From: Albula goreensis
Taxonomy: Eukaryota > Chordata > Actinopteri > Albuliformes > Albulidae
Length of the DNA: 64,000 nt
Direction: 5' to 3'
Assembly: GCA_022829145.1 (NCBI GenBank)
Contig: CM040749.1
Span: 20,855,987 to 20,919,986 of the forward strand
This document shows, one piece after another, positions 33,393-61,050 of this stretch. The notes under the pieces are model-generated. The model was not told where the DNA came from. It saw only the letters and a program-made list of their open reading frames with translations, and searched no databases. A program made the translations under genes and the position numbers. Each line of letters starts with the position of its first letter. The stretch's first letter is position 1.

Positions 33393-33410
33393 TTCCTGCA
33401 GGGGGCAGTG
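33393..33410 (+). promoter_or_regulatory. Strong CTCF-like motif upstream of INO80 relic
   Basis: TTCCTGCAGGGGGCAGTG is very close to the CTCF consensus with the CAGGGGGCAG core. It lies about 0.55 kb before the first recognised INO80 relic exon. Motif resemblance only. Confidence 0.45.
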
Positions 33411-33958: not shown

Positions 33959-34047
33959 TTCAATGTGCTTCTCTCAATGACAGTCGGAACAAAAAATCCC
34001 AGGCCACAAGAAATGCACAAAAGGCTTACCAAATCCACCTGGGAAGA
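33959..34047 (+). pseudogene. ino80: INO80 relic exon A (pre-helicase region)
   Basis: After an acceptor (TTTTTCATAACAG), the reading SQATRNAQKAYQIHLGR aligns with AQALKNAENAYHIHQAR of vertebrate INO80. With the preceding residues about 12 of 24 positions are identical, including A-Y-x-I-H and the final R. The relic stops at a GTAAAT donor exactly after that Arg, and the next relic begins at the following residue. The 5' part is out of frame relative to this reading, so there is at least one indel. Confidence 0.75.
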
Positions 34048-35775
34048 GTAAATGTCAGGCTACTCATGATGCCTCTGTGCTCCTTATGTTCTAAACCTGC
34101 TGCTCAGAGCAAGATATGCATACATCTGTACGAGCCATAAGGTAAATGCAGCCCCCCTGAGGGCAAAACTATGTGTGAAACTATACATTTGAAAGGTAAT
34201 GTATAGATTCTTGGTCCCTCTGAATATATGACCATCAAGGTCTTGTTTCTTTTTTTGGTTGAAATCTATTCAAAGAGTCCCTTGTGATAAGAATGGTAAA
34301 TGAGAGACATTGATTTGAAACTATAACTGAAGGTTTTTATTCTAGAATTTATAGAGCCACAAAACAGGCACTTCTCAACAGACTTGCCGGCATTTCTCCT
34401 TAATTGTTCAAGAGATGTTAACTAATTAATGGACCTAATTAAAATGTTGAAACGGCAGACAACACCAGCATTTCCTCAGCCAGAGAAAATTAAGCCAACA
34501 GATGTGACATTTGTGATGATAATTAAGTTTTAATCAACTGAAATACCTTGTGGTTTCCAACATAATCTAGGTCGCTTATCACAGATAATCCAATCAAAAG
34601 TCAAGAGAGACACAGAGGGGCTGTGTATTATATGCCTCACAAATAAACAGAGTAATTAATGAAATCTCACGGATTAAGGGAGCAAACTAATAAATAAATG
34701 GGTACCATACGGTGTGCAATTAGAATTAAGTTTCAAAGTTGTTGTATCAGTATCTGTCAAGTTTTACAGCCATTAATGTTTTGAAATTATTAGAACTCGA
34801 ATGCCTTGAAAATAATTTTAATGCGATGTACAGATTTAAGTTGGTAACTGTTGTCTTTGTGTTTTAAGTTGAGTTGGCAACATGCCACTTTCATATATCT
34901 TACATTCACCAGTACGGATGCACCAGTAAGGTCCCCACTCTCCTTTGCCTCAGCAGGTTGGCCTAATTAAAAATCACTAGGAGAGGTGTGGTCTGTTTAC
35001 ATAGGACCACAATAAAAATAAGATCAGCGCTTCCATTTGCCCCAAGACCCCCGAGCCACAGCACATGGTATTAACTTAATTGCATGGGGAAATGAGCTTT
35101 GACTGCCGCCCGATCCAACAGGAGATCAATGAGGCTTTCCGCAAGTCTTTGGCATCCTGTCAGATGGTGACCGTTGATCTGACAGGATTTCAATTTGGGA
35201 TCTGTCAAGACCCAGGACTTCCTGGTTGAAATGAAATTAAGGGAGAGTGAGAAAATTGTCTGCAAACCTGATGGGAGACCAACATGCAGTATTTCACCAT
35301 TGAGAAAATGTGCTTGAAATCTTTGTCTTTTTTTGTCTTATTCATGTAACACAGAACATTGTCTTGCTTTCTGTAAGAAAATACAACAATCACAACATAT
35401 TATCACATGACAGACAGAGATGGTCAGAAATATAATGAGGAAAGCTAACTTTTTTTAGGTTGAAATTAATAAATAAAGAAGTGCATGCATTCTGAAAATT
35501 CAAAAAACTGTTGTCACACCAGCATGGGTAGTGACTTCTCTACTTCCTTGCCAAAGAAGTTGCATATCTTGGTGTATCACTCCATGCAAATTGTACTGCA
35601 AATTGTTTAATCTTCTTGCTTTTTATGACATCTCAAGAACAGCAAAGAATACTCACCTGAGTCTTGATGCTTTGTATCATTGAGAGAGAGGGAGTATCCA
35701 GTATTATTCTATGAAATGGCTCTCCCTATAAGAAGTTGACAGCGTGTCTTTGCACTGTATGATTTCTTCCCCCAG
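34048..35775. other. INO80 relic intron with candidate conserved non-coding blocks
   Basis: No coding content. The segments around 34360-34760 and 35030-35250 are dense in TAATTA-type homeodomain cores, TGACAG, and FOX-like AAATAAACA words, and are low in simple repeats. This is the look of developmental enhancers, but it is an impression from a single sequence; conservation was not tested. Confidence 0.25.
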
Positions 35776-35934
35776 ATTAGGCTGTGTGATGATAAGGTCA
35801 AGGTCAAGCTGCTCGGCCTCCCAACTTCTCCAGTCCTCACTGGTGAGGAAACTCCCCATCTTACCATCTTCAACAGAAAACTCAAGGGCTTCTACCTTAA
35901 GGGCATGAACTGGCTGGCTAACCTCTATGGGCAG
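35776..35934 (+). pseudogene. ino80: INO80 relic exon B (start of helicase domain)
   Basis: It is bounded by CCCCCAG and GTAAGG and is 159 nt, open throughout. GEETPHLTIFNRKLKGF and LKGMNWLANLYGQ match GEDIPQPTIFNGKLKGY and LKGMNWLANLYEQ of INO80. The opening IRLCDDKVK parallels TRSFDEDAK, after which roughly 18 codons of the intact exon are missing. This is the best preserved relic and by itself identifies the gene. Confidence 0.93.
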
Positions 35935-36021
35935 GTAAGGCCACTAAACAGTTTGATACTTACAATGACTGGATGGCATGCACTGTCTGTTGGAGCCATG
36001 TTATCCTCTGTCCTCTCTAAG

Positions 36022-36087
36022 GGCAGGATCCTGGTGGATGAGATTGGATTGGAAGTGGGTGGTCTCCATGGCATTGGGGATGAGTGA
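36022..36087 (+). pseudogene. ino80: INO80 relic exon C (helicase motif I, destroyed)
   Basis: After an 87-bp relic intron and a TAAG acceptor, the reading GRILVDEIGLEVGG aligns with GINGILADEMGLGKT. The Walker A GKT, needed for ATP binding, has become EVG, and the two Asn/Ile codons before GILADE are deleted. The exon is about 63 nt to GAG, against 81 in the intact gene. The bases after it (TGAAAT) look like a decayed donor. Confidence 0.85.
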
Positions 36088-36660
36088 AATTGAAGATACA
36101 GAGCATGATCACTATCAAGATCCCCAGCTCTGTATGAAGTAGGAACACAGAAGAGCACTCTGATATTAGCAGTTATTGTTTAGTAAAAAGAAAAGTCAAA
36201 TGTTCAGCCAAAATTTTTATAGTAATGCACTTTCTGTGAGGAGCAGATTAGACTTTTATCACTGCCCCTCTGAATTAAAAATGTTGCCGATGTGTTTTTT
36301 GTAGTTGACTTATTCTGGAGGGCATTAGCACAAGTGTAGACTTTGTTGTCTGATTTTACGCTAACCTTTTTATTTTTACTCATTTGCTTCATCAGAACCC
36401 AGCTATGAGCTGTCCATGTGAGTTTTGGGAATCATTGAGCAATCTTTCCGCAGTGCTTGGTTATAGTTATTTCTGAGGACAGTGGAAATGCATTTAGGGA
36501 AAATGTAAAATTAGACAATTTTATCTGTGAGGAGCCACAGGAAATACTGCAAGCAATGAGTGGTAAGGTCAGGGCTTCCTGTTTTCCTTTGTTCTTCCTT
36601 TTCTCTCTCTCTCTCCCACCTGCTGTGTGATTAATTGGGGATTTATTCCCTCTTCCACAG

Positions 36661-36765
36661 AGGGACAACATCTGGGGCCCCCTTCTTCATATCCCCATCA
36701 TATTCCCTGCTTCCATGCTTAATAACTGGCTCCAGGAATTCACCCGATTCATTCCCAAATCCAAG
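36661..36765 (+). pseudogene. ino80: INO80 relic exon D (RDNIWGP block)
   Basis: It is bounded by TTCCACAG and GTAACT and open. RDNIWGPLLHIPIIFPAS followed by MLNNWLQEFTRFIPKSK aligns with RDNIWGPFLIISPAS and TLNNWHQEFTRFVPKFK. It is 35 codons against 32, so about 9 nt are inserted in the middle. Both splice sites remain usable in appearance. Confidence 0.92.
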
Positions 36766-37243
36766 GTAACTGAAGCACACAGGAAATGGCCTGCTCCCTT
36801 TCAGGGAACAATTGTTATTCACTATTTTTTGTCTTGTTTTTTTAATGATTTTTTTTTTTAATCTGGCTCAGTCTAATCATCTAATGAGGCATCTGATGAA
36901 CTGACAATCCACTTTTAAGCCATTTAAGCTCTTTGTGCATTTATGTTAATTATTTTTTCATATATGTTGACCTCACATGTGTCCATTCACATTATTGTAT
37001 TGTCACCCTTATCATTATATTGTCACACTACATTATTTAATTTTACTGCCATGTTATGCGGTCGGGGCTAGGTTGGGCATTGGACACCTTGTACTTCTGA
37101 CTTTATTTCCACCCTTTTGCTGTATGAAAAAGTAAACTGTAAACTTGTAAGTGTAAATGGCAAGTCAATTGGTATTTGTGCAATAAGTCAATAAATGGTA
37201 TTGATGAGTTGGTGGATCAAAGTTTGGTTGCAGATACTGATCT

Positions 37244-37260
37244 GGCCTGCAGGGGGAAGC
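37244..37260 (+). promoter_or_regulatory. CTCF-like motif within INO80 relic
   Basis: GGCCTGCAGGGGGAAGC resembles the CTCF core. Motif resemblance only. Confidence 0.3.

Positions 37261-38669: not shown

Positions 38670-38671
<2 letters not shown>

Positions 38672-38702
<31 letters not shown>
38672..38702. repeat. (TTA)n microsatellite
   Basis: Perfect TTA trinucleotide run of about ten units in a relic intron. Confidence 0.95.
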
Positions 38703-38703
<1 letters not shown>

Positions 38704-39149: not shown

Positions 39150-39366
39150 GTCACCATTAATTGGGACCATGTTGTGTTCAACCTGATAAAATTACCTCAG
39201 TGTGAAGAAAATATTCTACACTTCACATGTTCCTTTTCAATCATCACTACAAGCTACCAAACAGTGGTCCAGCATGTAAAATATTTCAGACAGGCAAGAT
39301 GGCAGCACCTGGTCTCGAACAAGGTTGAGGATCTGAAGAGCAGCACTAGGCCAAAATATGATTTAT
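39150..39366 (+). pseudogene. ino80: INO80 relic exon E (helicase motif II, destroyed)
   Basis: Open for about 72 codons. VTINWDH parallels VLPYWGN. SIITTSYQTVVQHVKYFRQ followed by ARWQHLVS aligns with HVVITSYQLVVQDVKYFQR and VKWQYMVL. The Walker B/DEAH-like box DEAQ is replaced by NKVE at 39318-39329, so the catalytic acidic residues are gone. KSS follows as in INO80. No splice acceptor is visible at the left, and similarity fades after the KSS block. Confidence 0.92.
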
Positions 39367-39869
39367 CTTGTTTAAGCAATATTCAGGATCATAAATAAAG
39401 GCACGTCATGAATGATGAAGTATGCCATTGTGGACTTTGTGTAGCTGTGTCTGATTGTGCTGTGTTCCGGTGCACCTTCTTATTCCCTCTTTCCTTTGGG
39501 TAAGTGCCGTCACTGCCGAGTTACTCAGACTGGTTGTTTCCTATAGGTATGGGAAATATTGTGCAGCCATTGTCTTTTCATTTTGTTAACTGGGTGGAGA
39601 AATTCCATTTAGATATAGAGTTGTCAATTCTGTGAGTCAGGAAAGGGTGTGATGATGTGAGCTAAACCTGAAAGATTGAACAAAAAACCCCATGTACTGT
39701 TCAAAGGCTCTCAGACATGCTGTTTAATGGTCCATTAGTGATAGAGAAATTTTCTGCACAGTGCTGTAAATGAACAGCACGTATGGGAGCATTTGTGCAT
39801 TGTGCTAGCATTTCATTTCCTTTCCTGCTTATGCCAACTTTTGTTGCCATTCATCTAATCCTGATAATG

Positions 39870-40777: not shown

Positions 40778-40930
40778 CTGTGGGCCTAACTGCACTTCAT
40801 CATGCCCACCCTATTCATTCCCACAATGAGTTCAACAAGTGGTTCTCCAAAGACACCCAAGAGCCAATGCCGAAAACAAGTCAGCCATTGACGCGAGTGA
40901 GTGCTTCCAGGTTTCACCACATCAGTCGTC
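40778..40930 (+). pseudogene. ino80: INO80 relic exon F (stop codon and frameshifts)
   Basis: After TTTTCCCAG the frame reads LWA-stop-LHFIMPTLF, matching LWALLHFIMPTLF of INO80. The stop TAA is at 40787-40789, where a Leu codon should be. One base of the next Asp codon is deleted near 40816. The reading then continues in a second frame as HSHNEFNKWFSKD (INO80 DSHEEFNEWFSKD), in a third frame as AENKSAID (identical to INO80), and again in the second frame as SRFHHI (INO80 SRLHMI). So there are three frame changes and one stop in a single exon. Confidence 0.93.
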
Positions 40931-41916
40931 AGTCTAGATTCTGATACAGTGTTATATCCCTTTGCGGGTAAAATACAACAACAATACAAGAATAAAACTG
41001 ATAAATCTCACTGGAATCTGGAATTTCTTTTGTTAGCTTTATTAGTTGAAGGGGAAAGAAATTTGGGTCTCATTCACAAGCAAAGAGTAAAACCAGATGT
41101 TTCATCAGTTTATTTCTTAAAAAATGCAATAGCAAGTTATGAAATAATTTGTGTTGTGTTGCCCATACCAAAATAGATCTTTTTGTTATAATGACTTGGA
41201 AAACCAAGAAGCGGAAACCAGGCTTGCCTAGGAGACTATAGCATATGTGATTCTGATTCAGTATTTTGAAATAAGGCAAGCCTGTGAGACAGGAACAGAT
41301 CTGATTCTTATTCTGTATATTTACTTGACTCCCTGCACTCACTGCTCTCACATTTGCAAATGAAGGCTTTCATCTTACAATGAATCAATAAGGATTTGGA
41401 GAATGAGCTCTCTGATTCTGTTGGCACACACTGGAACAGTGAATTGTGGAAACGGCTGGTGTGTTTCTGATTGGGAAGGTTTTCATGTGATTGCACATGA
41501 GCACAGGAAATTCTCACATGTACGTTTACTCACTTCTCATCTCTGGTTATTATCTTTTAAAATGTTACCGACATAACCATAGAATTATTAGGAAAGATAC
41601 ATTATAATTCTATTGCCTAAATGCCCTTCTCACATATTTATCCAGCTCACATGGGCTAAGTACTTCCAAGCTGCTTCTTTTGTTAAAGAGTAGGCTAAAA
41701 CAATGAAGAAAGGTGATGCCAGGGATTGTGAGGAGCAGCGTGGGCATGCACTGTGCTGCATTCCAGGGTCAGCCCCTGGGGCTCCCTGACCCATGGTGCC
41801 AGGATACAGCCCTTTCCCAGGTTAGCAATCCCTTGCCCTGGTGCAAGGGGCAGGAGTAGGGAGGGAGAGACCTCCACCTAGCCTGTCTGCCAGACTGTCT
41901 ACTCATGTCTGCCCAG

Positions 41917-42122
41917 ATTTCTCTTGGAAGTCGATATCCTGATGTGTTGCCACCTGACCACCCAGTGACGGCTGCTGAAGCAGGTATGGAAGAATAAGCT
42001 GTCAATTGAAGACCTGCTTCAGTCTTTCATGGGCCCCACCTAGCAGACTCAGAGCTTCACCACTAGGTGAATTAAGCTAGTCATGAAGGCGTGGAACAGA
42101 GTGGCCTTTCTGTGCTTCAGAG
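41917..42122 (+). pseudogene. ino80: INO80 relic exon G (three in-frame stops)
   Basis: It is bounded by a TGCCCAG acceptor and a GTATAC donor. DILMCCHLTTQ-stop-RLLKQVWKNKLSIEDLLQS aligns with EILMYCQLTSRQ, KLLYQALKNK and ISIEDLLQS. Stops are TGA at 41966-41968, TAG at 42041-42043 (a Gln position) and TGA at 42068-42070. KLVM at about 42080 corresponds to NLVM, and the exon ends at a position matching FERQ, where the next relic takes up with QE/ET. Confidence 0.93.
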
Positions 42123-44876
42123 GTATACGTATGTCAAAAGGTCATTTAGTCTCAGTGTAGCTTTGACCCCTGATTAGAGATTATGAGGGGACTGGTGAGT
42201 GTTCTCAGATGAAATTTTTGGAAATTTTAAAAACTAAAACCCAGTCATAAATGTTATTTCTGTAAGAGCAATACTGTGGATTGTGAGAAAATAGTTTTTC
42301 GAGTTTTTAGAGTGCTCCGGGTAATTTGGAATCGAATATACTGGAATGTAACTTATTAATATATGTGCTCCATGGTGCATCAGCCTGCGTCTCTAAACTT
42401 GTGCAGCCACTAGCCAGGAGACACGCTCATACTTACATATCTGAGGTCTTACGCAATGTGCAAATGCCTCATGTGTCAGTTCCAGTTCAGTCAATGGTAT
42501 CCCTCTTTTTGACAGAGCCCAGTGCTCATTCTCCCTGTAACATGACCACACTGACATCATGTTGGTCTAATGTAATAGCAAAATCAAGGAGGTATCACAT
42601 TTTAACTGAAACTATGTTTGACATTTGAACTCTGCTGTTCACAGGAAATCAGGTAAAAGCTACAGTGGTAGACAAGGTCAGCCTCTGTTCTGTGTTTGAA
42701 TGTTCTGTTAGGGGACAGAGAAGAGCGTTTCGCTCCACCGGCCATTATCCTCCTCTGTTTGCCAATTAAGAGATTATAGAATCTGGTGTCCATCTGCCTG
42801 CTTTCCTTTCCCTTTCAGGGTGGGACTCAAACTACATGATTACACATCTACTGTACTGTTTAAATATATTGGCCTCATTAGCAGTAGAGTTTCTCTGCTT
42901 CAGCTGGGAAAAATGAATAGCCAATGTTTTTCTCATACATATTGTATGCCAATACATATCCCAGTTAAGCAATGTGAAATGGGATCAAACAGATTTGATG
43001 AACAGAAAACTATCTTATGAAAGAGTTAAATGTATGGCTAACCCATCAGTCACATGCCCTTTTAAAAAGGAAAGATGGAGTCCAGCCTTGGCAGGGTTGC
43101 CAGGGCTCTCAGCTGGCTCAGCAGCAGACGCAGAGGTCTCCAGGTAGTTGGTGTCATGTCAGGGTCAGGTCTCCCAGCTCCCTTCCTCTCTGCCGTTCTG
43201 CTCCATTAAGCTCTGGCGTTGGTCCACTTGGTGCATGTTAAGCAGTTCAATCCTACCCCAGTTCCCCCACAGGGTTTGAGGGGTGGAGAGGGGGCCCCTA
43301 CTGGGCCCCTGCTGGACTCACACTGAGCCCCAGTTGCTGTCGGGGTGTGATGTCCCCCAACCCCCCCTCCCTTCCCACTTAGAGAATTACCCATCACTGA
43401 GTGCACTCCAGGAACAAATGCGACAGGAGCAGAGCGCAGAATGTTTGAATATGTGGCAGTTTGCTTTTGTAACTGATAGATAGTGGCAACATCCAAGAAT
43501 GAAGAGTGATCATCTCAGGGATATACTTTTTGTGTGCTTACTCTGATATTGACACTTTCTTTGTAACAAGATATTACTAATATAATTATCTAATTGCGAT
43601 GTATAGGACTAAATTATGATAGATACAGATACAGACAACACCTGCTGCAAAGCAGTTTAGATTTTACTTGTTTCTGTTCATTTGGCAGGCTACTGTGGGC
43701 CATGCTGTCCTGGTTCCCCTCTGTCAAATCCCCCTGTCTGTGAGCCAGGCCAGGTGAGCCACCCATCCTGACACAGTTCCCACAGCCAACTGGGTGTTCC
43801 TCACATGAGACCTCACTGCCCCTCTTTGCTTTCTATGGTTACAGTCAGCTGCCTACAAGACAGCTGCCTCTCCTTCCCTCAATTCAAAGATGTGCAAAAC
43901 AGCCTCTGCTTGTGTGCTTGTGGTCCACTCTTCTCTCGCCCTGTCTGAATAGATTCTTTTCTTCCTGGATCTTAGTCTTCCCTACTTCCTTTAAGAAAAT
44001 CCATAGCAGCTCTTTCCAACAGGTGAGTCACCATGGCCACATTGCACAAGTAGCTGGCAATAGCTACATTATTGTTGTTATATCCTATCCAGAGTGACCT
44101 ATTAAAAGAAGGTAAGTGCATGTGCAATGTTACAGTATGTTGCAAATTTAACCAGTTGCTGTCAGGGCTTTGCCATAGTGTATGGCTGGGTGTCTCCATC
44201 ACAGTTATCCTTTAATTGGCTTTGTTAACCTATTAACCTTCTCTGCACTCTTTCACTCCCTCAGGGAGTTCTCAACTTTCTCATTCAAATCATGACTCAA
44301 CATTGTAGATTGCAGCCTGTTGTTTCACAAAATAATTGTCTTGAACCATTAAATAAATGTATCTTTGATAGGTAAAGATAGCAGGTTATCAGGTGGGTAA
44401 CATGGTGTGTATGACTCTGGAAGATTCCGATTTTTCAGTTCAGTCTTTTATTTGGTTATGACAATGTATGAAATGAGAGAATCCCATTGTACTGTACGGA
44501 GCCGGGAGGAACAGTGTTTACATGAAGAAGGCATTGACCATAGTATAGCATTCCCAAGTGATCGGGAACAGTATCCTAACCAAGTGTTAACAAGGGAGCC
44601 CTCCCCTTGCATCATCTAGAGTTTCTGTTGAACAAGGCAGAAAAACAGGGCGAGAAACCACATCACCACAACCCTCCCTGTGCTATGGAGATGGACCGAG
44701 CCTTGGGCTGTGGTGAAACTCTACCCCCTGTCTTGACAGCCCCTCATTTTACACCCCCCTTCCCCCAGAATGAGCGTCTCCCAGCTCAATCCTGCCATGT
44801 CCTGCGGGGAACCTGACACCCCTCAAACAAGGCTCCCCTGTCAGCCACCAAGCCCACGAGTCGAATGGTCCTGCAG

Positions 44877-45070
44877 GAACACGCTTGGGAAGACCCAAGC
44901 TGAAATCCGACCCAGCAAACGCTTCCTGAACATCCTCAAATCCAAACAAACAAGGTGGAATTGTATGCCTCTGTTTGCCCCAGAATCCACAACCAGGCCA
45001 GTGTTTTTCGAGAAGCCCCTGGAAAATGGGGAAGAAATGCCTCCATGGGTAAAGGATGGTGCAGTGATCT
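44877..45070 (+). pseudogene. ino80: INO80 relic exon (insertion region, FAPD block)
   Basis: It begins after TCCTGCAG and ends at a CA-GTAAGG donor-like site. The first frame reads EHAWEDPS then stop (TGA 44901-44903), parallel to ETWSPFHIS. A second frame gives PSKRFLNIL, and TRWNCMPLFAPESTTRPVFF aligns with DRWLRVLSPFAPDYIQRSLF of the INO80-specific insertion (R-W, F-A-P, R and F conserved). The end, WCSDLS, parallels RFIDVS in a third frame. Its place between relics G and J is as expected. Confidence 0.72.
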
Positions 45071-45239
45071 CAGTAAGGCTGCACATGATGCAACTGTGTG
45101 CATCCTAATAAAGAGGCGTCAGGCTGTATTAACTGTGAGGGTGTGCCAACAATAGCAGTGCTATTTATCAGCCATTTATATAATAATATGTAATATAAAT
45201 GAGTGCTAAATCTTTGTGCATGTTAATTAGCACAATGCA

Positions 45240-45330
45240 GTGGGGTTGTGATTTGATTCAGTGGACCTAAAGTGTGTGGGTTTGAATCCCAAATGGTTTT
45301 GTGGTGCCCCTGATCTACCAGCAGGATTAT
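45240..45330 (+). mobile_element. tRNA-like SINE head fragment
   Basis: TTGATTCAGTGG resembles an RNA polymerase III A box, and GGTTTGAATCC at about 45279 matches a B box, about 30 bp apart. No tRNA cloverleaf can be folded around them. It is probably a decayed SINE head rather than a tRNA gene. Confidence 0.3.
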
Positions 45331-45440
45331 TGTCTTTCAGCATTTGCCTTTTTATTTTGGGAAGAAAGCATTGAACCAAAAGAATGAATGAAATTTGAGA
45401 CACTCAGGATCCTATAATGCTTTGTTCCTTTTGCCCACAG

Positions 45441-45545
45441 AGCATTGCACACACTTGAGATCCGCCCCTGTCTCGTCTGTCCCTGTCTCATAGCTGTCTT
45501 TGGCCTCATCCTTTCCCATCCAAAGACTCACATTCAGAAAAGAAC
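45441..45545 (+). pseudogene. ino80: Probable INO80 relic exon (LLARWLALF block)
   Basis: After a TTTGCCCACAG acceptor, LEIRPCLVCPCLIAVF can be aligned with LMLQGLLARWLALF of INO80, allowing two extra residues. IAVFGLILSHPKTHIQ follows against LALFLSLKASYRLHQ, with Phe and His at the same spacing. Mostly conservative matches with few identities, so support rests on the splice acceptor and the expected order. It could be chance. Confidence 0.4.
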
Positions 45546-45961
45546 ACCCTCAGTTTTTCCTCTGCTAAGAAAAAAAGGCCCCAATCCCCTGGCACAAGGC
45601 AGACCAGGGCCCTGCCCGAGACTCCGCAAGCGTGGTGCGGTTGAATCCCAACTCAGAGCGCTCCAGACTGTCGGGCTCCCACCAAGATCCCTTGTGTCTC
45701 CAACCCCTCCCATCAAATCTCCCCACAGTTCATCCGTCACTTCCCGCTGCCTTCCTCTTAATGGCGCGAGGCATCCATGGGATACAGCAGGACATGTCGA
45801 CAGAGGCGTTCAGCCTCCCCGAGAGATTCAGTGAGGTTTTTGTTGGGAGCAGGATTATTGCAGCTCATTGTTAGCGATTTAGCCTTAAAGCCCATTGGCA
45901 AGGGAATGGTTGGGTCCTGCATCGGTCATTAGATGTCAGAAGGAGGTTTGTGCTTGTGAGT

Positions 45962-45980
45962 TACCACTAGGTGGAAGTGT
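45962..45980 (+). promoter_or_regulatory. CTCF-like motif within INO80 relic
   Basis: TACCACTAGGTGGAAGTGT matches the CTCF core except at one position. Motif resemblance only. Confidence 0.35.
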
Positions 45981-46989
45981 ACCACCATGTTGATATTAAG
46001 CTGTGCTTAATTCGTTTGTTGACTTCATTCACGCTCAGCCTGCTGAGACAAATACATGCACTCAGACATATTAGCTCACACACTCCTATACACACAGATG
46101 TATACACACATTGGTAATGTGTGATTACTGACTTCATTACTGCTACAGTCTAGGACCCTGTCCTTCCCAGCCTCTGGCCCATGGTGCTCAGCCACATGGA
46201 CATCCTTGTGGTCTGAAGATGGTAGGCCTCCTCCATCTCCATGGCCTGCCAGCCTGCCGGTTCTCCAGAATTCCTCTTTACCAAGGTAAGAGTCCCAGTC
46301 TAAAATCTTACCAATCTGATCTGGAATCAGAAGGGATAATTGCAGGAGGAGACATCTGCCAGTTCCACTGAGGTACACATTATGTGCCATTATGCACATT
46401 ATAAACCACATTTATTTATGCCATAATTCAAACACTAAAGAATCTTTTGTTGGATTCTTTGGTGACCTTCTCTGCTTCTATTGCCTTTTTATGGAGGCAA
46501 TCCCGTTTAATAAATGCAACATTATGGGTCTGTGCAAGATACAGATAGTATGCATTTCAGGCCTATGCCTGACAGAAGGAACAGGAAATGAGAGGCTCAT
46601 AAGATCTTCATTAACACCTCCTCTATCAGGGATAGAACCTTATCACAGAAGATAAACAGCTGCTTTCGCTTCGAATTGCAGCAGCTATAGCAAAGTTTAG
46701 TGCTTGGCCCATCTGTTCATACCTCTGTCATTTCAATAAGGTGCTGGACGAGGCTTGAGAGACAAAGTGTTATGAAGCATTTGAGATCAGATCAGGTTTG
46801 CTTAGTGCCACATGCTGTTTGTCAGTGGGGGAAATGGTGCCCTATAATCACAGGCTCTCGCGTGGCTGCCCAGGCCATAAAAGAGTAGATTGCAAGTTTC
46901 CATTGTTTGCTGTTCTGGGTTTTCCAGAAGCTTATGGTCATTGCAATTGAGCTTTATTGCCTGCTAATGGCTGCGATGTGATTATTGTA

Positions 46990-47150
46990 GGCATCATCAA
47001 CCCAGGCAACCTGGTCCAGTCCCTGCTCCCTGACACACATGGCAATGGCATCCTTATCGGTCGAACATGTGGCGAGTGTTTGGAGACCGGTGCCACTGGA
47101 TTTGTGATCGACTATGTGGGACACCCCTGCTGCGAGTCCCAGCTGCACTG
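46990..47150 (+). pseudogene. ino80: Possible INO80 relic exon (VASPRV-VPLD block)
   Basis: In the second frame after a TTATTGTAG acceptor the sequence reads HVASVWRPVPLDL, parallel to CVASPRVTAVPLDS of INO80 with one codon lost. CDR appears after a small shift, as in CNDR. A 64-codon frame covering the same bases in another register resembles no family I know and is probably accidental. Seven identical residues in correct order support the call; it remains tentative. Confidence 0.4.
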
Positions 47151-50100
47151 AGACAAAACTGCACACAAAGCTGAAAAAAGGCCTTCCTTATCTTTGGCCC
47201 CATGAACACCCTGTTTATTTAGTTTCCTTTCCCCCACAACCATTTTCCTGATTTTCTGATTGCTGTTCTTCTGTAAACATATGTAACTGGCCTATAAGGC
47301 AGCATTTCACAAGGGATTATTGGCTTCATGGTTATCAGCTGTGATAGAGTGCGTGTCTTTCTTTTGATTAAGATAATTATTTTAACAACATAACTAGTTT
47401 GGGTGTAACAAGGTCAAGACAGACCTAGCCAATACATCATAAAGATAGCGATAATACTTGTTTTTGGTACATTTGCTGCTGAATTCCACATTTTTTCCAT
47501 TGTGCTTGAGCTTCAAAGTTTGTGGTTTTTTGCCTTCCACAGCTTAAAATTTCTATTGGCACTAGCAGTACAACATTTTATGCTCATCAATGCACTGATG
47601 CATTCTAGGAAAGTGATAAGAGACCATGAAGAAGACAAGAACCCTGACCCTGGGGATAGAGCCGTGTGTATGATCTTAACTGTAGCCTGCTGTGTATCAA
47701 GCATTCCAAACACCAACTACTATGGTATTTTGAAGAATGATAAAAATCAATAAAAACTACAGGAAATCTGCTGCAATCGCTGATCACTACCAAATAATAA
47801 AAGCCTCCTTTTTCACAAGAGAACAAAGAAGTCCAAATGAAAATGGCTGGTGCTTAATTTATGCCTTCAGTGAAGTGGTGTCTGATTTAATTAATTATTG
47901 TGGGAAATGGCCAACTGTAATTCAAAGGGAACGAGTCAGTTATGAGTAGGCTGTATTTCTCTTGGCAAGCTCCCTGTTGGAAAGTGGATTTTGAGGTGAA
48001 ACCTCTGGCCAAGGATGCAGGAAATGTGGAGGGGAGCATGACATTGACTGATCAGGTTGGCTCTGCCCATCTAAAACAAGTTCAAGTCAGCTGGAACCAT
48101 TCAATCCAATGCTGGTCTGTTGTGGGCAAGGGGGAGGGGAGACAGGTGGGGGCATTGGTTGCTGGTTATGAAACTCTCCACTCATCATTCATCATAGATT
48201 TGTATTTCCCATTGTGTATGTGTTTGTTCCTCCTGAGCAAAAATGTACTTCATGTAGAACAATTAAAAATGTAAATTCCTGGTGTCATTGTTGGTTCTAC
48301 TCAGCACAAAAAGCAAGATTTCACTGGAATTGAACTTCAGGAGCTGTTTGAAATTCTGGTAAAACTGTGTTTCCATAGTGCCACAGATTCCCCCAGTCCT
48401 CCTGTGCATTTTATGCTTTGGGCATTAACTGGAGACCAGGAAAGTGATTCTCTGCTGTGCCTTTTCCTGTGTCACTGTTAGGCTCTACTTGAAATGGTCC
48501 ACATGGGAAGGGAATTTTGTGCAGCATTAAATGACGGGCACAGACGTTCTGCAAAGCAGAGGGAAGGACTGCAGTCACGGTGAGAGAGAGGGTCGGGGGC
48601 CATAAAGGCCATCAGCACTGCATCGGGGGTTGGGTGGGGGCGTGGTTGAAGCAAAGGGGCATATGAGGACTGCTCCTTTGACTTTTAAAGCCTTGACTCC
48701 GGACATAGGGGCTTTAATTTCAAAGCATGAGGGGAGAAGTGCCACACTCTCAGTGTTCAGCAGGTCCCCAAGGTTTGTTTGAAGTGGGATTTGTTTGAGC
48801 AGCATTATCTAGAAGAGCTCATTTGACCTGTGAAAGAGAGATAGCAGCAAACCAAAGCAACCAGCCCCCTCCGCTCCCCCGGCCCAAGCACCCTTATCAC
48901 CAGCAGGACAGACTGTACGGACCTTGCCAGTGCTCTAGAGTCATAAAGGGTGAAAAAAAGACATGGTGTTCAAAGCTGACAAATTATTCCTCATGCGCTC
49001 TCTTGCTGTCTGGATTCCGCCAATTAAAATCGGATATCAAAACAATGCTCTGATTTGTTGACAGACTTTGCTCACAGCATCTCTTTCAATTGGTTTTGCT
49101 GCTGTAGTTGGGACTGCTCTCTCTTTCGTGAGACACTCTACTGCCAAAGCCCCCGGCAACTATCTATCAGGCTGCCGAAGACAACGTTGCTGCCGTTCCC
49201 ATTATTGTACATGGTAGACAATGCCTCCAGTGTTGTCTGCATGCATAGGTGTCTCCTTGACCCCAAAGGTTGCCCCCTGTCAAGTGAGCTCAATTCCAGG
49301 AAGTTTTGCTTTGGGGCAGAAGGGTCGGGGGAATTATGGAGGATGGGGGGGTGGAGAGTGCTGGTTTAAGGAAGAGAGGTAAATCTAGGTTTTCCAGGTG
49401 ACCAGACCCATCCCCACAACAAGCTCTTCCTGGGCAAGGCCCCCACTTGAACCGCCATGCATGTTTTCCTCCAAACCCTTGATCCTCCAGCGGCCAGACA
49501 GGCCCCTACGAGTACCTGGGCGTGCCCTCTCCAGAGCACAGGGTATCTGGTGCCAAAGGCAATCTCTAAGGGTCATCTGCCCGTTTCATTGGTCTGCAAT
49601 CTGTCATCGCGCCCAGCTCAAGTGTTCAGGGGGAGATAACCCAACAGACCTCTCATTTGGGCCCAATGAGTCATGCCGACATACAGCAGTGTACACAGAG
49701 AATGATGGATGCTTCTGGAACAAATTGCTTACTGCCAGACAGAAAAAAGGTGAAGCAAGCAGCTGCTTCAGCAAAGTTGTCACTACAGTCACACATGATA
49801 ATATTGTTGGACCAGATATTTTACGAGACAAAAAATGCACATTTATGTTAATCTGAAGCTGTGTCATTTCCATTATTTACACATATACATTGTTATGATT
49901 GTCTCAGATAGGACATGTACACATTATGAAAGCAAACAATTTCCCGGTGACAGTGATTCTCATGAAACATTATTACAATGAAGACCTTGGTGTGGGGAAG
50001 AGTCTCTGGATGTGAATGACTTTGGTGCCATGCAACACTTCCTGCATGGGACTCCCAAGTTGACTGTTATTTATATTGCTATATGTCTGCTGTTGCACCC

Positions 50101-50192
50101 ACATACCAGAAGGCAGTGATGGCACGCTGACATGTACATTGTCTCTACATTGGAACAACAGGTTTGAATATCATCCTCTACTGGAAGACTGT

Positions 50193-50330
50193 AGCGCACT
50201 GGTGTCCAACCTTATCTGAGAAGGGCCGGTGTTAGTACAGGTTGTGGTACGAGCCCATGCTGATTCAGGTGAGGCCTTTAATTTGTTGACTCAGGTGCTA
50301 TAATACTGGGTGAGAATAAAAACCTGTTGT
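50193..50330. mobile_element. Degraded DNA-transposon/MITE fragment
   Basis: ACTGGTGTCCAACCTTATCT, GAGAAGGGCCGGTGT and later AATAAAAACCTG recall a very common teleost repeat that starts with a 'GTGTCCAA-CTTAT' end and contains 'GGGCCGGTGT'. Only one end is recognisable. Assignment is from memory of that repeat. Confidence 0.4.
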
Positions 50331-51129
50331 CACATTGAAGCTCTTGGAAACCCTGACTTTAATAGCTGCTTAACATTACTTATATTACGGACACAGAAAA
50401 TCCACGTTTTCAAGTGGCTGGCAGGTGTCGATTAAATTTGTATATCATGGACACCTTGAATGTAGGCCCGGTCAAATGTTTTATCAACACTCTTAATCAA
50501 TATGCTGCGGCAATACAATGGTAACCATGCCAATCACAGCTGTTTCCATTCACTCATTAACATTTTAACTCATTTGTTAGCTAACATTAAAACTTAAAAG
50601 TATAAAAACCACAGTGGACCATTTTCTTTATTTGGCAAGGACAAATAATTTGAGGATATCATCTATAGTAAAAGGATATGTTTTTAAATATTGAAAATAC
50701 CACACCTAGCAAGCAACCGTGATATAAGCAGCATGACACCCTCTGAGGTGTCCATGTATGCTTTGCATTGAGGAGTTCTTCGCCTCCACCTCATCCGTTA
50801 TATTCCTACAACGGTCACATCAGCGGGTGTTATGCCTTACATATCTCATATGCCTGTAAAGCAGGAATTCCTTTTGACAGCTTAATGGCTTTTTTAAACT
50901 GGCCTCAAGCTAATGCTAATGGGACTTTGTATTTCACGTCTATAATTGATTGTCTTCAGATTTTCAGCTTAGTATAATTCTGCTTTAGGAGCTTGAGACA
51001 ATGTTTTTTCCTCTCAGGCATAACATAATGTTTCTTTCAAACTATTGGATAAAGACTCAAAATGCACTCTGTTTGTCATGGGCTCAGGGGAAGAAGCCTC
51101 GGTTAGGCCAGCTGATGAAGTTTTTAGGA

Positions 51130-51310
51130 GTGGTGTAAAGATACATTGTTTGAAGTATGAAGGAGGATACCCTGCCTTGCTAAACCCACCGTGGCTTCAC
51201 CATCAGGTACCCGAGGAAAGACACAAATACCTGTCAGTCCACTTCATTTGTCTCAAAGCCGATAGAAGGCCTGGAAGTTCATCATGGGATATGTCAGGAC
51301 ATACCCCATG
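51130..51310 (+). pseudogene. ino80: Possible INO80 relic exon (KEGG-LLN-GWSFI block)
   Basis: CLKYEGGYPALLNPP can be aligned with VLKEGGSLAAKQCLLNGAP (LK, EGG, A and LLN shared, four codons missing). About 110 nt further on, another frame reads AWKFI against GWSFI, where 132 nt separate these blocks in intact INO80. The order relative to neighbouring relics is right. Similarity is short and gapped, so this is a low-confidence call. Confidence 0.3.
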
Positions 51311-52589
51311 CTGCCCTAATGCCAGCAGCTCTCCCCCTCAGTTGGTGCAGCCACTCAGCCCCCAGCCCCTTTTCAGAGGTGAGGAGCAAATGACAATCCC
51401 TCTCGTTATGCCAAACCAAATGAAGCAGATGTTATCAGTGTTGCCATTTTAATGTACACAGTGCTTTTGTATCAGGGATTCATGGGTTTGATGACTGGGG
51501 AAACTATCACAAATCTTTCCCTGTATGCTTAACCCTTCATTTAGGTGTGGCAGTGTGTGGTTAAATATACGTTGTAAACCAGCATGGTTAAAGCCATGGG
51601 CTTTGCAATGTGGAAGTTGCAGCTGTGGCATTGCTTTTGGAATCTTGTGAGATCTGTTAACATATCCAGCTTCATAAGTTATGAGTCAGAAAAATTAATG
51701 CTCAGTTGCTGGATAAGTACATCTCTCAAAATAAATAAAAAAGCATTTCCTTTTTTGTTTTATTAGAACATTATTTTAAAAGGAAATTGTTAAACTTCGT
51801 ATCAATTATGATTGATCTGGTATTGTAAAAAGGGCAGACAGAGCCCTCCTAGTCTGTGGTGAACATGTCAGGCTTATCTCTGACCAAACCCCTGTCTTAC
51901 TCAGCCCAGGAAATTCTGTAATGCTTTTAGAGGATTTCTGCTGATGTTTTAGCGTAGAATTGTTTGTGAGCCATGTGTAAGTAAGGCAGGACAAAGTGAG
52001 GAAGTTGTGGCCCTGCTGTTGGTGATTGTTTGAGAGTAGCATTAAGTAAGAGCAGTATGACCGTATACCCTGAGTCACACACACAGTCTAAAATCCCATG
52101 AACTGGGGTGTCCTTTCCGCTCCTCCTAGAGCTGAGGTGTGTTTGGAAAGGAAACCAACATGATGCAACCCTTCTTAAGTTTGTTATCAACCTATATCTG
52201 GATTCTCAAGAAATGTAATTATTCACACACAGGCTAAAAGGCTGCAGATGTATTGTTCTTGCTCAAATGCATTTTCTGCTGCCTTCTCATGGTTTATTTG
52301 TAAACATTTATTTCAGCATGCAGTTTGATCACACGATAAGCTGTCTCATGTTTGTGGTAAATCAGCCTTATCAGTATCACCACAATGAGTCAGATATTAA
52401 AACAATTGTGGGTGAAACATCTGTGCTCGTCTGCTACAGCTTGACTTCTCCAAGCTTCTCATGATTGAAACCTTTATGTTAGATAAAAGAAAAATGGCCT
52501 GTTGATTAAGCAAAAAATTGTGGCATGCTTAAAACAAAGCACAGTAAGAAAGGCTTTTGTTTCCCAAACAGTAATGAGGGGGCTGGGCG

Positions 52590-52920
52590 CCCCAGCATAA
52601 AGGCTCCCTCACAATGGATCAGGCTTTTGGGTTATTGTGCGCTCCAAATAAGACATAGAAATGGCCTGGAAAGGCATTGAGATCTGCTCTCCACAAGTCT
52701 GTGGGAAACATTCGCTCCTCTTCCTGTTCTTTGAAAGAAAAATGCGCTCCAGTAAAATGGCAGGAAATATCCACAGCCTTTTGATATTAGCAAAACAAGT
52801 CGGGTACATAATTGTTTACAGTTTGCGACTGTCGTGACCATCTTTATGGAAAAACACAGCCTGCAATTTAATTCAAGCTCAAGCTTGGGCGAACTGACTT
52901 CGAACATTCAATACTGCTGT
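52590..52920. other. Complex low-repeat block in INO80 relic intron
   Basis: No coding content. The sequence is evenly mixed, free of simple repeats, and has the look of a conserved non-coding element (clustered AT-rich cores alternating with E-box-like and TEAD-like words). Similar-looking blocks occur around 50.39-50.62, 54.64-54.88 and 55.56-55.78 kb. This is an impression only; conservation was not tested. Confidence 0.2.
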
Positions 52921-53050
52921 TCCAGGGGCTGCCAAAATGCGCTACTGTATTACTAACCAACTGGAAAAATGTTAGTATGAAATAATAAAACACTGAACAA
53001 GAAATACTCTGACAAGCAGGTAATTTAATTTAGTCCATATTGATCTCTGA

Positions 53051-53095
53051 AATAATACTAATACTAATACTAATACTAATAATAATAATAATAAA
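53051..53095. repeat. (AATACT)n/(AAT)n compound microsatellite
   Basis: About four AATACT units followed by a run of AAT units. Confidence 0.9.
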
Positions 53096-53806
53096 ACATT
53101 ATGATAACATTCAGGTGTCACAATAGTTTGTCATGTATGTGTATGCGTGATATGTGTCAGACCTTAGACCACAGGACAGGAAATATATGTGTACACCAGC
53201 TCAAGGATTTATTATGCAACACATAATTGGGTGCTCTAGAAGTTCCATATGGCCTGTTTTTGGGTAGGGCAACTTCACTCATTCAGTGGGGCAAAAATAT
53301 CTTAGGGTGGTGAGTATATTGCATTTTCCCATATGCAATGTGTATTGGAAGATTTCATTATTGTTCCCCACAGTCTGAAGATACCAGGGATGATCCCAGA
53401 ATGGGAGAGGGAGGGATCCAGCTTTCCTCTTTGTCTGCGACTGTCTGCACATGCACTCTTGCACTCACTCGCTCTCTCAGTCACTCCAGTGTGCTCGATC
53501 ACATTTGTATTTGTATGTTTGCATATTTCAGCTTGAATACAAGTTGTTGTGTTTTCACTTAAGTTGCTGATGATGGGATGTGATTGTTAACATCAGACCA
53601 CTTGGAACGAACCCCAAAGTTCCAGTGGCCAGTATCCCTTGAATGAACTCTCTATTGCAATTGTTGTGGTATTCTTCTGGACCCAGGACAGTGCAGAGAC
53701 AATGTGCCATTGACCCAGCAGGGACAAACATTCTAGCAGCTTTTGCTCTCAACCCCCTCTCCCCATTGTGTTCTTGACTTCCTCTGCATGCTGCTTTTCC
53801 CAGGTC

Positions 53807-53825
53807 TTGCCAACAGGGGGAGATG
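53807..53825 (+). promoter_or_regulatory. CTCF-like motif within INO80 relic
   Basis: TTGCCAACAGGGGGAGATG matches the CTCF core CCA-CAGGGGG closely. Motif resemblance only. Confidence 0.4.
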
Positions 53826-56259
53826 TTGGTGCTCTGAATCCTTAATCCCTCTCAGTGGATGTCTTGGTTGAGACCTGTCTGCCATGCTATCCTTAAAGGA
53901 TTACTGTGGGCATACCTCTGTCCCCCTTTCTATGTCTGTGGTGCATTCTTAATTTGTATACTGGTCAAAATGTATAACAAGTATGGTTGCCAATTTGTCT
54001 GTCATCCAAACGCGATCCAAATCTGAAATATAAAAACAATGAATATATACTAAAATTCACAGATTTGTTCTTGTATCAGAAAATATCAAATTATTCCTCA
54101 ATACATGCTTGTATGTGCTGTTAATTCCCAGACATTATTGCTCTGTGCACAGTAACCATTATTAACCCCAGCAACCACAATGGAAACCCTTTTCAGTTGT
54201 AACTTACTGGTACTTAATTGGTACTTGCTGTCTCATACATTATTTATTATAGCGTTATGAAAACAAAACAAGATCGAAGGTATTCTGATAGCAGTGATAA
54301 CATTCTCAAGAATGTTCCAAATGTAATTCAATAGAAATATACTTCTGACTTGCAAACACTGAAATACATTCTCCCAAGTATGTTTGGAAGTATGGTCTAC
54401 TAAATATATAAGAAGTACACAAAACGTAAATATGCAGAACAGAACACAACCCATGGCAGTGCTCTTATGCATGCATTAAAGTAGCAAGCCCCACACTCTC
54501 TCATCTTCTATAACGATAACATACCCAGTCTGAGGGTTGTGTGTACCATGTGTATTGTGGCATCAGTTTTGCTGCTAAGGCACATTCGGAGGGTCAGACC
54601 TGCATGGCAGCAGCGCTGAGGGCAGCATTGCAGAGCATGTATTTCAAATCGTGACAGATTATACATTCAAATAGCCCGATTTACCTCAGCTTCTGCTTAG
54701 ATATAACAAATTCTGTGCAGGAAAGCATCAAATATCCACCACTGCAGAAAATACAACAGATTACATGTGATCTCTTAATTGCCCTCATTGAGATAATTCT
54801 TTCCACAGCATTGACAGGAATAATGTGGTGTCATATGATGAATCCCCATGCCTTTCGGGTTTCTGCTGAGCAGATGGGGTGAGGCGGGGTGGTGCATAGA
54901 CTGAAGTGTGAGTAAAGGGTTAAATCCCGTGAGCTTGGTCACAGGAAGTCCCACATCCTGTGCTGCCCTGGCACGGGGAGTAGGGGCCTTCCATGGTGAC
55001 CCGCCAGCCAGCAGAACCTGGCAGCAGAGCCTGGTCCCAGCACTTTAGAGCAACAGCGAGGAAACATGTTTTAAACAGGGCTTATCAAACATACAGCCCT
55101 CGAGTCATCCCCGCCCCAGACCTCTGACACGCACCATCACACAGCCCTGTGGACTGGCCATGGTCATGTCATTGTCAGTCTCAACACAATGCTTGTGTTT
55201 TAGAGCACCCAGCTATGCGAAACTCATTCAAGATTCTCTGATCTTTATGGCATTTGGATGGCATATTCTATTTACTGCACCCAATGGGCAAGCTGTAAAG
55301 ATGACTGAATCAGTGCAGTGTTTGAGTAGCATTATTCCTTCAGACCACAGCCACTGTGGAGGCTCTGGAGTGTCACAGAGTGTCTCTGCCCCTTTGATAG
55401 CTTTGGCCCTGGTGGTGGAGAGCACGTGCTGAGTGTGGTAACCACCATAGCAGAGTGAACAATGGCTTCAGATACACTCAAGCAAGCTCCATGTTTCTCC
55501 CAATGGGGGTCAATCTTTACAAATCGGTTTGATGCCCCCCTTTCACAGATGGGCAAAGCCCTCAGAGAGATGATCTCAAGAGCAGTTTCCCTGAAGGGCC
55601 CAGCTCCTCACGTTCCAGACCGCGGCTGACTCGCTGCGCTTAAACCAAAACAAGATTACTTTAATGAAATTAGGCACAATGAAAGCGCCATTCCGCAGTG
55701 GTCAGCCAGGGCAATTAGCAGGCGACGGCTCTCTGGCGGGCTCTTTAATTGGGTCAGCCGCGGGTCAGGCCCCAGTTCTGGTTGTGAGAGATTGGATTAC
55801 GTGTTTCAGGGTGGGGGAGGGAGGCTGTTTGCGGTGGAGGAGTGGTCCAGGTGGTCCGAGCAGCCGAACCACTGCTCACCGTGGGCAGTGCCTGCTGCTG
55901 TCCTGCATCCAGGCTGCAATTGCATGGAGTATTCTCAATTGCACTTGAGCCTGCAGCAGCACCAAAAGAAATATATGGATGTATGAGCAGATATAATTGA
56001 TACTACAGAGATGTAGGTGGTGATAAACTTTTCCATATTTCCTCCTTTCCTTGACATGACAGGTTTTTTAAACTGGCTCATATAAAGTTTTTAATTATCA
56101 CTGATTTGTGAACTGATTTAAAGGTTAAAGTACATCCTTAGGTAGTATTTGAGCTGTTTCATGTCTATACTGTGGTTGGTCATTGCAACATCTAAGTGCT
56201 GAGACCTGAATATGGGATAGAGAGGAAGCAATCATAGGAAAGTGCTGACTGAAAGTCAT

Positions 56260-56325
56260 GGCGGTGTGGCTTTGCGGCGGTCCGGCGGTGCAGCGGTGCG
56301 GCGGTGCAGCAGTGCGCCGGAGCAT
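56260..56325. repeat. GC-rich minisatellite (GCGGTGCA-like units)
   Basis: Short imperfect tandem units around GCGGTGCA/GCGGTCCG, strikingly GC-rich against an AT-rich background. It yields spurious arginine/histidine-rich frames on the minus strand. Confidence 0.75.
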
Positions 56326-57875
56326 CGCAGGCCTTGTCTGGCCCGAAACCACGCTGTCACACTACACGCCCAATAAACTCCTCTCTGGCACCACCAGCGC
56401 ATCCTGCAATCCCTGCCGACGCCAAGCTGGTTAGACGCCTTTGATGGTAAAACATGGACTTTGTCAAAAGAGTCCACTCCAAGCTGACTTTTTTCCCCAC
56501 ATTGAGCCATACTCCACTTAAAGGATATATGCCCAGAATGCAGTCTGGAAATAATATTGTGGCTTAGCTGTACAAGCACAGTTTGGGGAGGAAAATCATC
56601 AGTTAGATTGAATATTGGCACTATTTTGGCTCTGATCATCCTTGTCATAGTGAGTGCAGAGTGACATGTGCCAGTGGTTTTAGGGGCGTCAGTTTTCCCT
56701 CAGCGGACACTGCAGTGACCTTGCTGTCACCCCTGACAGTGGGAAGCAGGGTTCTTATGTGCTTAGTGTTCATTAGTACCTTAATTAGTTTCTTTTTAAC
56801 TCACTGAGGGAGCAACCTCTGATCTCTGGCCTGACCCTCTGAGGTCAAATGTTGGGGTTCAGCTGAAGTGCACATTAGCATGCAGGTGGAAGTTTGGGGG
56901 GCAGGAGCGATGGCGTTTCTGTAACACTCTGCTGAAACCCACACCGCCTCCCTTTTCTCTTGTACATGAGATAATTGGCAGATTATGCCTTTAACCCTGT
57001 CTGTCTAACAGCTGAAGCTCAGAGATGCTGCTCTTCGTTTCAGGGAAAGAAGTGTAATACAACAGAGGAGGAGTGGCCTGGGTCCTGGAAGAAGAAAAAT
57101 ATGTCATGGAACAACATGGCTGTGACTGGTACTGATTTCAGAGTTCAGGCAGAGGTGTAGGGATATTGACACCCCCTCAGCCAGGCACCGACCACAGGAG
57201 TGACCTTATGGTCGATATCTGATCACTTACATCATCACTAATGACCCACCCCCTCCAACCTTATTAACTTTGTTTCTATTTAGAAAAGTGCCTGTTTCTG
57301 TGGCCTTATGATGAGTAGAACATTACACATTAATGAGCAGTGGGTCATTGGGCTGTGATTGGACACAGTGAGGGTGTGCAAGGGTGGGATTATCTTTTCC
57401 TGATAGTTGGTCACACACAGCTGATCATCACTGATCACCGTTCCAGTGCCCCTGACAGGGCCAGCTGGGTCCACATAATGATGAGGTTCCCTCCCGACCC
57501 CCTGACCCTGACCCCAGAGTGAGGCCACCATAGTGTCACCCTCTTCCATCCCCTCTCTGAGCCCACAGAGCGGATGATCCCCTCATTATGCTTGTTATTG
57601 TTGGGAGGCTTTAATACCTCATTACTGACAATATTGAGTTTGTGCTGTCTCTGACACATATTCACATAATCACCATCTAAACCTTATAATTAAGTCTTGA
57701 AACTCTTGTTTTTCTGTCGTTGACACATTATAAAATAAATGTCATAAAAGAATAATTATAATGCTGATGTTAGCATGCCAAACATATTTAATGCAAATTA
57801 ACTTTTTTGACAGCACTTTTTTTTTGGTTCTTACTTTTTAACAGGGCAAGTAAAGGATATTCTCTGACTTACTGG

Positions 57876-57992
57876 CATTAGAAACAGCTATTCCCCGATT
57901 TGATAGCACTTGTAGAAGCTATTCTCTAATTGGATGGCCTTAATAGAAGCTTTTCTCTGATTTGATGGCATAAAGCTATTCTTTGAATAGCA
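57876..57992. repeat. Degenerate 31-35 bp minisatellite
   Basis: Repeated units of the type GAAGCTATTCTCTGATTTG followed by ATGGCATTAATA, at about 57883, 57915 and 57946, with decayed copies beyond. It lies about 200 bp before INO80 relic exon J. Confidence 0.7.
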
Positions 57993-58198
57993 ATAGTAAA
58001 GTGTATTGTCTTGTGAGGTGGAATGAGCGAAGGCTGTTCTGTGACAGCTCAGGTGAAGGCTACTATGCAGTTGACCAGCAGCTTTCAATAGCTATTTACT
58101 GATTCAGTGGCACAGAAGAGAGCTTTTCTCTTCCTTATATAAATTTTGTGTATTAAATAGCCAGGGTAAACATATTTTGGTTTTACAGCTTTCTTTCA

Positions 58199-58378
58199 GA
58201 CAGAAACATACTGAGCATGCTGAGTGGGAGGCTACACACACTGTACATGCTGGTGTCCCACTCCAAGTCCCAGGGTCCCCACACCTTTCACTGCCCTCAG
58301 ATGACCCATGTGATCAACCTGGTGCAGGGGAAAGCTAATTCTAACCTCACATTGAACACCAGCTCCACTGACTGGTTA
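58199..58378 (+). pseudogene. ino80: INO80 relic exon J (helicase lobe 2 start)
   Basis: After TTCTTTCAG the frame reads NILSMLSGRLHTLYMLVSHS, then KSQGPHTFHCPQMTHVINLV. These align without gaps with ESLITDSGKLYALDVLLTRL and KSQGHRVLIYSQMTRMIDLL of INO80. LTLNTSS parallels MRLDGSS further on. The exon is open until TAA at about 58388. It contains the start of the second RecA-like lobe and is the last relic recognised with confidence. Confidence 0.88.

Positions 58379-60941: not shown

Positions 60942-61050
<109 letters not shown>

Follow-up and report, generated by a model that had tools for sequence, protein, structure and literature searches.

The locus considered here raises a question in three parts: does the row of INO80-like fragments beside RHOV and VPS18 in Albula goreensis represent a ruined additional copy of INO80, where did that copy come from, and when did it die? 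The stretch of DNA analyzed (the window, 64,000 nucleotides) is C9:20855987-20919986, where C9 denotes contig CM040749.1 of assembly GCA_022829145.1. An earlier reading made from the letters alone (the sequence-only reading) had proposed a dead INO80 gene at 33959..58378, a duplicate lost after a genome duplication, either late or in a slowly evolving lineage. The region is very probably an unprocessed pseudogene, one of two INO80 genes produced by duplication of a chromosome block, most simply in the teleost whole-genome duplication. All results come from one genome (932 Mb, 208 contigs), and positions given without a contig are those of the window.

The intact INO80 copy

The functional counterpart lies on a second contig (C7:9179128-9156586, minus strand). 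Its 34 exons, joined at GT-AG sites, give a stop-free protein of 1542 amino acids (aa), of which 1204 residues are identical to human INO80 in a global alignment. The human query agrees with PDB chain 7zi4_G over residues 1-1556. In the C7 model, the frame had to be corrected at junctions 2 and 22, which sit in variable stretches, and exon 19/20 possibly hides a small exon; details at these places are uncertain.

An intact INO80 elsewhere in the genome had been anticipated by the sequence-only reading, and the single intact copy on C7, with its complete open coding sequence, answers to it. Both genome matches to the DBINO domain (2/2) fall on C7, with none elsewhere. The genome-wide protein search for INO80 copies covered aa 1-530 of the 1542; it returned 12 matches, 11 on C7 and one a relic exon on C9.

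Relic exons on C9

The C7 protein was aligned to 134 kb of C9, made up of the window with 20 kb before and 50 kb after it. This gave 26 alignments at E<=10. All 12 with E < 0.05 (best 3e-13, 1e-11 and 1e-8) lie on the + strand in protein order, from window position 33979 to 67726, with one exception in order: the alignment of aa 472-590 extends back into intron sequence at its left end. The remaining 14 have E values of 0.15-8.1, and those of exons 23 and 29 among them belong to the series. The reversed C9 sequence, as a control, gave 10 matches at E<=10, the best at 0.42.

Scored exon by exon against 40 dinucleotide shuffles, 18 of the 34 exons stand above all shuffles, including the 15 that can be placed on one strand (+) with protein order kept. 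Twelve of these 15 are in the window (32066-58327) and three lie past its end, up to 68240. Exons 2-3 were confirmed by DNA comparison at 32064-32411 (E=2e-10, 56.8 bits); none of 11 control intervals exceeded 31.1 bits, and reversing the interval gave 24.0 bits. The other three exons that beat the shuffles were not counted: exon 1 is out of order, and exons 31 and 33 exceed the best shuffle by just 2 and 7 points over 34 tests.

The placed exons, followed by one rejected candidate, are these:

32066-32243, + strand: INO80 relic exon 2; splice dinucleotides preserved at both ends
32343-32411, + strand: relic exon 3; acceptor AG preserved but no donor left
33980-34047, + strand: relic exon 10 (33959 in the earlier reading); donor GT kept
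35730-35934, aligned 35811-35934, + strand: relic exon 11 (earlier 35776); donor kept (CAG, then GTAA); 3' part 80% identical in DNA to C7
36022-36093, aligned 36028-36052, + strand: relic exon 12; weak alone; Walker A ruined
36661-36765, + strand: relic exon 13; 85% DNA identity, splice sites preserved at both ends, three insertions totaling 9 nt
39208-39421, + strand: relic exon 15; DEAQ box ruined; local alignment stops at 39349, and the 3' part after it is poorly recognizable
40778-40896, aligned 40778-40891, + strand: relic exon 16; 84% DNA identity, both splice sites kept, a stop and frameshifts
41332-41419, + strand: relic exon 17 (absent from the earlier list); in-frame stop
41931-42097, aligned 41931-42088, + strand: relic exon 18 (earlier 41917); three in-frame stops
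46126-46291, + strand: relic exon 23 (absent from the earlier list); weak; three in-frame stops
58200-58327, + strand: relic exon 25 (earlier 58199); acceptor kept, donor lost
65968-66062, 67555-67717 and 68139-68240 (window-equivalent), + strand: relic exons 26, 28 and 29; 2.0-4.2 kb past the window end
44877-45080, + strand: ninth exon of the earlier reading; rejected, outside the relic

These significant, ordered matches bear out the collinear, single-strand arrangement in protein order that the sequence-only reading had described, and its eight main exon relics are real (exons 10, 11, 12, 13, 15, 16, 18 and 25, with 12 weak alone). The limits it set do enclose relic DNA but are too narrow, with exons 2-3 lying earlier and exons 26, 28 and 29 past the window; inside those limits it missed exons 17 and 23. 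It was also right that no long open frame reveals the gene: the open frames of at least 120 aa in the window do not trace the relic. Its "good ninth" exon at 44877 is a chance resemblance, with a score of 36 against human INO80 811-912. Within 42095-58170 that query does better at other places, reaching 40 on this strand and 45 on its complement, and the C7 protein scores 26 at the site.

From 32066 to 68240 the relic spans 36.2 kb, whereas the corresponding exons of C7 take up 18.9 kb, and the window ends within it. VPS18 and exon 2 are 3.0 kb apart on C9 and 9.6 kb apart on C7; since this gap is short and exon 1 was not found, the promoter end of the relic has probably been lost. Relic intron 25 measures 7.6 kb, compared with 1.3 kb on C7. 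A pure (TG)51 microsatellite at 60944-61046 lies in this intron. A scan of the window against Rfam at gathering scores gave 0 matches.

Lesions and identity of the relic

As a coding gene, the C9 INO80 is dead. The alignments of exons 16, 17, 18, 23 and 26 are interrupted by in-frame stops, and nine of the 13 aligned exons carry indels not divisible by three. The Walker A sequence, GLGKT on C7, reads GLEVGGL followed by a stop in the relic, and the DEAQ box of exon 15 has become NKVE. Splice sites are partly preserved, as had been claimed: acceptor AG is kept in 9/14 exons and donor GT in 8/14, both being retained in exons 2, 13, 16 and 26 (exon 12 was left out of this count because the aligner misplaced it). 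With such lesions the locus would yield no protein product. Collinear exons with introns, disabling lesions and a functional paralogue together make it an unprocessed pseudogene.

Many remodelers share Snf2 ATPase exons, so fragments of this kind might derive from another Snf2-family gene, or else from a processed copy of INO80. The PDB matches of relic exons 11 and 15 rule out other Snf2 genes: for the exon 11 peptide all eight distinct sequences at E<=10 are INO80 chains, and for the exon 15 peptide, with 11 sequences matched, eight from INO80 head the ranking and SWR1 and SRCAP close it. The better fit to another Snf2 member that the earlier reading had named as one possible refutation is not seen. 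Exons 2, 3, 10 and 23 also fall outside the shared ATPase motifs. A processed copy is ruled out by spacing, for hundreds to thousands of bases lie between most placed exons, intron-like gaps that a processed copy would lack. Either origin has next to no likelihood, and the fragments are read as a decayed, intron-bearing INO80 gene.

The duplicated block and its origin

RHOV-VPS18-INO80-CHAC1-DLL4 stand in the same order on C7 and C9. INO80 alone among the five has lost a copy; its four neighbors keep open coding exons in both blocks. Assessed on aligned exons, C7/C9 protein identity is 86% for VPS18 (878 codons), 78% for RHOV (220), 74% for CHAC1 (203) and 74% for DLL4 (657). Pooled, the neighbor pairs share 80% protein identity over 1958 codons and differ at 329/613 4-fold sites, a Jukes-Cantor (JC) distance of 0.94. 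ChaC-domain matches (6 in the genome) occur on C7, C9 and C19 only. Two of the neighbors lie within the window:

22105-23708, - strand: second copy of RHOV; aligned exons open; C7 partner at 9193991-9195589, + strand
24717-29018, + strand: second copy of VPS18; large exon 26052-27944 open

A block of such age on two contigs of ~40 Mb would come most simply from the teleost whole-genome duplication. Double conserved synteny over several genes is seen in the five-gene block. Farther out, each block has a TSP_C gene, which we take to be THBS1-like, 0.35-0.45 Mb away in the direction of RHOV (C7:9.54 Mb; C9:20.43 Mb); these genes are suggestive as a block marker. The five genes together with the TSP_C gene support the earlier proposal of a duplicate lost after genome duplication.

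Several observations weigh against this account. Nineteen of the 34 exons (1, 4-9, 14, 19-22, 24, 27 and 30-34) were searched for and not placed, and exons 12, 17 and 23 are individually weak. TSP_C has 29 matches on nine contigs, seven besides C7 and C9, and the MEIS/PKNOX family (14 matches), tried as a block marker, has a C9 locus and none on C7, so double synteny does not extend to it. A lineage-specific segmental duplication of ~0.5 Mb might instead have produced the two blocks: the tested block spans ~0.4-0.5 Mb, and with one genome examined phylogeny leaves room for it. The pairs are old by their 4-fold distance, however, the blocks lie on different contigs of ~40 Mb each, and all four INO80 neighbors are kept in order, which makes a segmental origin highly improbable. 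Whole-genome duplication is the preferred source of the C9 copy.

Beyond RHOV, in each of the blocks, lies a 213-column stretch (L018:4011-4219) that is 72% identical to C7:9217355-9217564.

Timing of the loss

Decay was counted between relic and C7 in the 13 alignable exons, with exons 2 and 3 outside the set. Differences at codon positions 1, 2 and 3 number 113/458, 85/461 and 177/460. Divergence is 0.215 at positions 1+2 (198/919) and 0.385 at position 3 (177/460; chi-square p=4e-11), and this third-position excess implies that the relic was once coding. Neutral change since the duplication would have brought positions 1+2 to 0.35-0.36. In the 12 core exons, a set from which exon 23 was dropped as a variable region, their pooled divergence is 0.193, below the neutral expectation with p below 1e-22. 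Death at the moment of duplication was rejected, core-exon divergence being too low for it.

Neighbor 4-fold sites served as the clock, and the functional baseline was assumed to be 0.02-0.08. On these terms the copy has been dead for an estimated fraction of 0.30-0.43 of the period after duplication (bootstrap limits 0.18-0.57), or 0.36-0.49 (bootstrap 0.21-0.69) with exon 23 included. These fractions carry caveats: counting recognizable exons only favors late death, the 4-fold distances approach saturation, and the estimated dead time would be lowered as well if some exons were under regulatory constraint. The estimate suggests that the C9 INO80 remained functional through at least half of that period, and codon-position decay supports late loss, one of the two alternatives in the earlier reading. 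The teleost duplication is dated to 267-286 million years ago (PMC11259977), on which age the gene would have died roughly 50-200 million years ago.

In the course of events that we infer, the RHOV-VPS18-INO80-CHAC1-DLL4 chromosome block would have been duplicated, giving two INO80 genes. The C7 copy would have retained the essential function, leaving the C9 copy redundant. The latter would have stayed under selection for a long period before losing its coding capacity. Stops, frameshifts, loss of splice sites and of any recognizable exon 1, and a near doubling in length would then have followed, although the order of these lesions, like the duplication itself and the absolute date, belongs to the inferred part of the account.

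Noncoding elements in the intron 24 region

Not all of the sequence shared by the two loci is exonic. Two noncoding elements common to C7 and C9, new here, survive in the intron 24 region of the relic:

52696-52820, + strand: conserved noncoding element 1; flanking relic exons are 23 and 25
55742-55800, + strand: conserved noncoding element 2; flanking relic exons again 23 and 25

Element 1 is 81.6% identical over 125 columns to C7:9166226-9166348, and element 2 is 82.0% identical over 61 columns to C7:9163718-9163778, both in INO80 intron 24. In genome searches each matches its C7 and C9 places only, and the mismatches of both are without codon rhythm. At aligned places element 1 carries one motif resembling an RBPJ site, TGTGGGAA, one resembling a forkhead site, TGTTTAC, and two that resemble ETS sites, AGGAAR. 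These come from a post hoc scan of eight patterns tried after the sequence was known; SOX and TCF patterns occur in both copies of the element but on opposite strands, and MEF2 and GATA in neither.

A possible third element lies in INO80 intron 9, where window 33394-33561 aligns to C7:9175888-9175707 at E 3e-5 and a core of 27 bp reaches 93% identity. Between CHAC1 and DLL4 (L014:4168-8072), four stretches outside recognized coding exons are shared with C7, at up to 88.6% over 132 bp. Further C7-C9 aligned stretches occur beyond DLL4, outside recognized coding exons; the aligned stretches near CHAC1 and DLL4 may include untranslated exons.

Parts of the relic (the two elements, perhaps also exons 13 and 16, which have decayed least) might have been kept as long-range regulatory DNA of a neighbor, most likely DLL4, much as a genomic regulatory block might outlast its bystander gene. 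This would be an addition to the pseudogene account, and it is entertained tentatively, as possible but rather unlikely. Both elements are collinear with C7, ~82% identical and limited in their genome matches to the two INO80 loci, and the aligned noncoding-candidate stretches between CHAC1 and DLL4 and beyond DLL4 point the same way. So would the uneven decay among core exons (chi-square p=0.007), which is, however, confounded by earlier protein constraint. Third-position divergence in exons 13+16 (20/69 versus 157/391, p=0.08) is not significantly lower. Element 1 differs at ~18% of sites, hardly less than relic positions 1+2 (21%), and because its divergence is so close to that of dead coding positions, selection after gene death is not demonstrated.

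DLL4 may be the natural candidate target. Two mouse Dll4 arterial enhancers (intron 3; 12 kb upstream) are described as dependent on ETS, RBPJ and SOXF sites (PMC5110996). The aligned RBPJ-, forkhead- and ETS-type sites of element 1 in both copies would fit a Notch-responsive distal DLL4 enhancer kept in both duplicates, its intron held under selection after the reading frame was lost. That proposal, drawn from motif content, is doubtful. It is weakened by the absence of a same-strand aligned SOX site and by the inert mouse forkhead site: according to the same source, the forkhead motif of the mouse intron-3 enhancer bound no FOXC and had no detectable effect (PMC5110996). The post hoc character of the scan, with its opposite-strand SOX and TCF sites and no MEF2 or GATA in either copy, argues against it as well.

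Comparison with known systems

As in other ohnolog pseudogenes left by the teleost duplication, one copy decays in place amid retained neighbors while the other keeps the function. Old ohnolog losses usually leave no recognizable gene; the C9 INO80 is unlike them in that 15 exons and several splice sites remain. The C9 copy was seemingly under selection for a large part of the time and its wreck is still readable, which makes the tempo at which an essential duplicate is lost measurable. Former exons of a lost bystander gene are reportedly recognizable near a retained gene in a 2010 study. In contrast to exonic remnants with a cis-regulatory role, most C9 INO80 exons decay, and regulatory retention is putative here.

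In the regulatory-block model, bystander genes of genomic regulatory blocks often carry a neighbor's elements in their introns, and most zebrafish bystanders of duplicated targets are single-copy (PMC2745767, PMC5728398). The locus resembles the '211' bystander pattern in having a single-copy housekeeping gene (INO80), a developmental neighbor in double copy (DLL4) and intronic noncoding elements, two of which lie in intron 24 of C7 and have counterparts at the matching position of the relic. It differs in that the C9/C7 elements are few and ~82% identical between duplicates, and the targets are candidates only. PMC2745767 contains 0 occurrences of INO80. A literature search on INO80 pseudogenes or duplicates in teleosts and on DLL4-CHAC1-INO80 enhancers met no INO80 relic, which is no proof of absence; the INO80 mentions in one paper concern INO80C. 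Since the C9 locus has lost its reading frame, the two elements in it lend themselves to enhancer tests, with DLL4 or a different neighbor as target, free of any coding role on C9.

Other features of the window

Outside the block, two open stretches on the - strand at 6762-7984 show B-box/ANCHR-like zinc-binding and GBP-type GTPase domains, and resemble ZFYVE1/DFCP1. An open frame at 7424-7909 (+) runs antisense to one of them.

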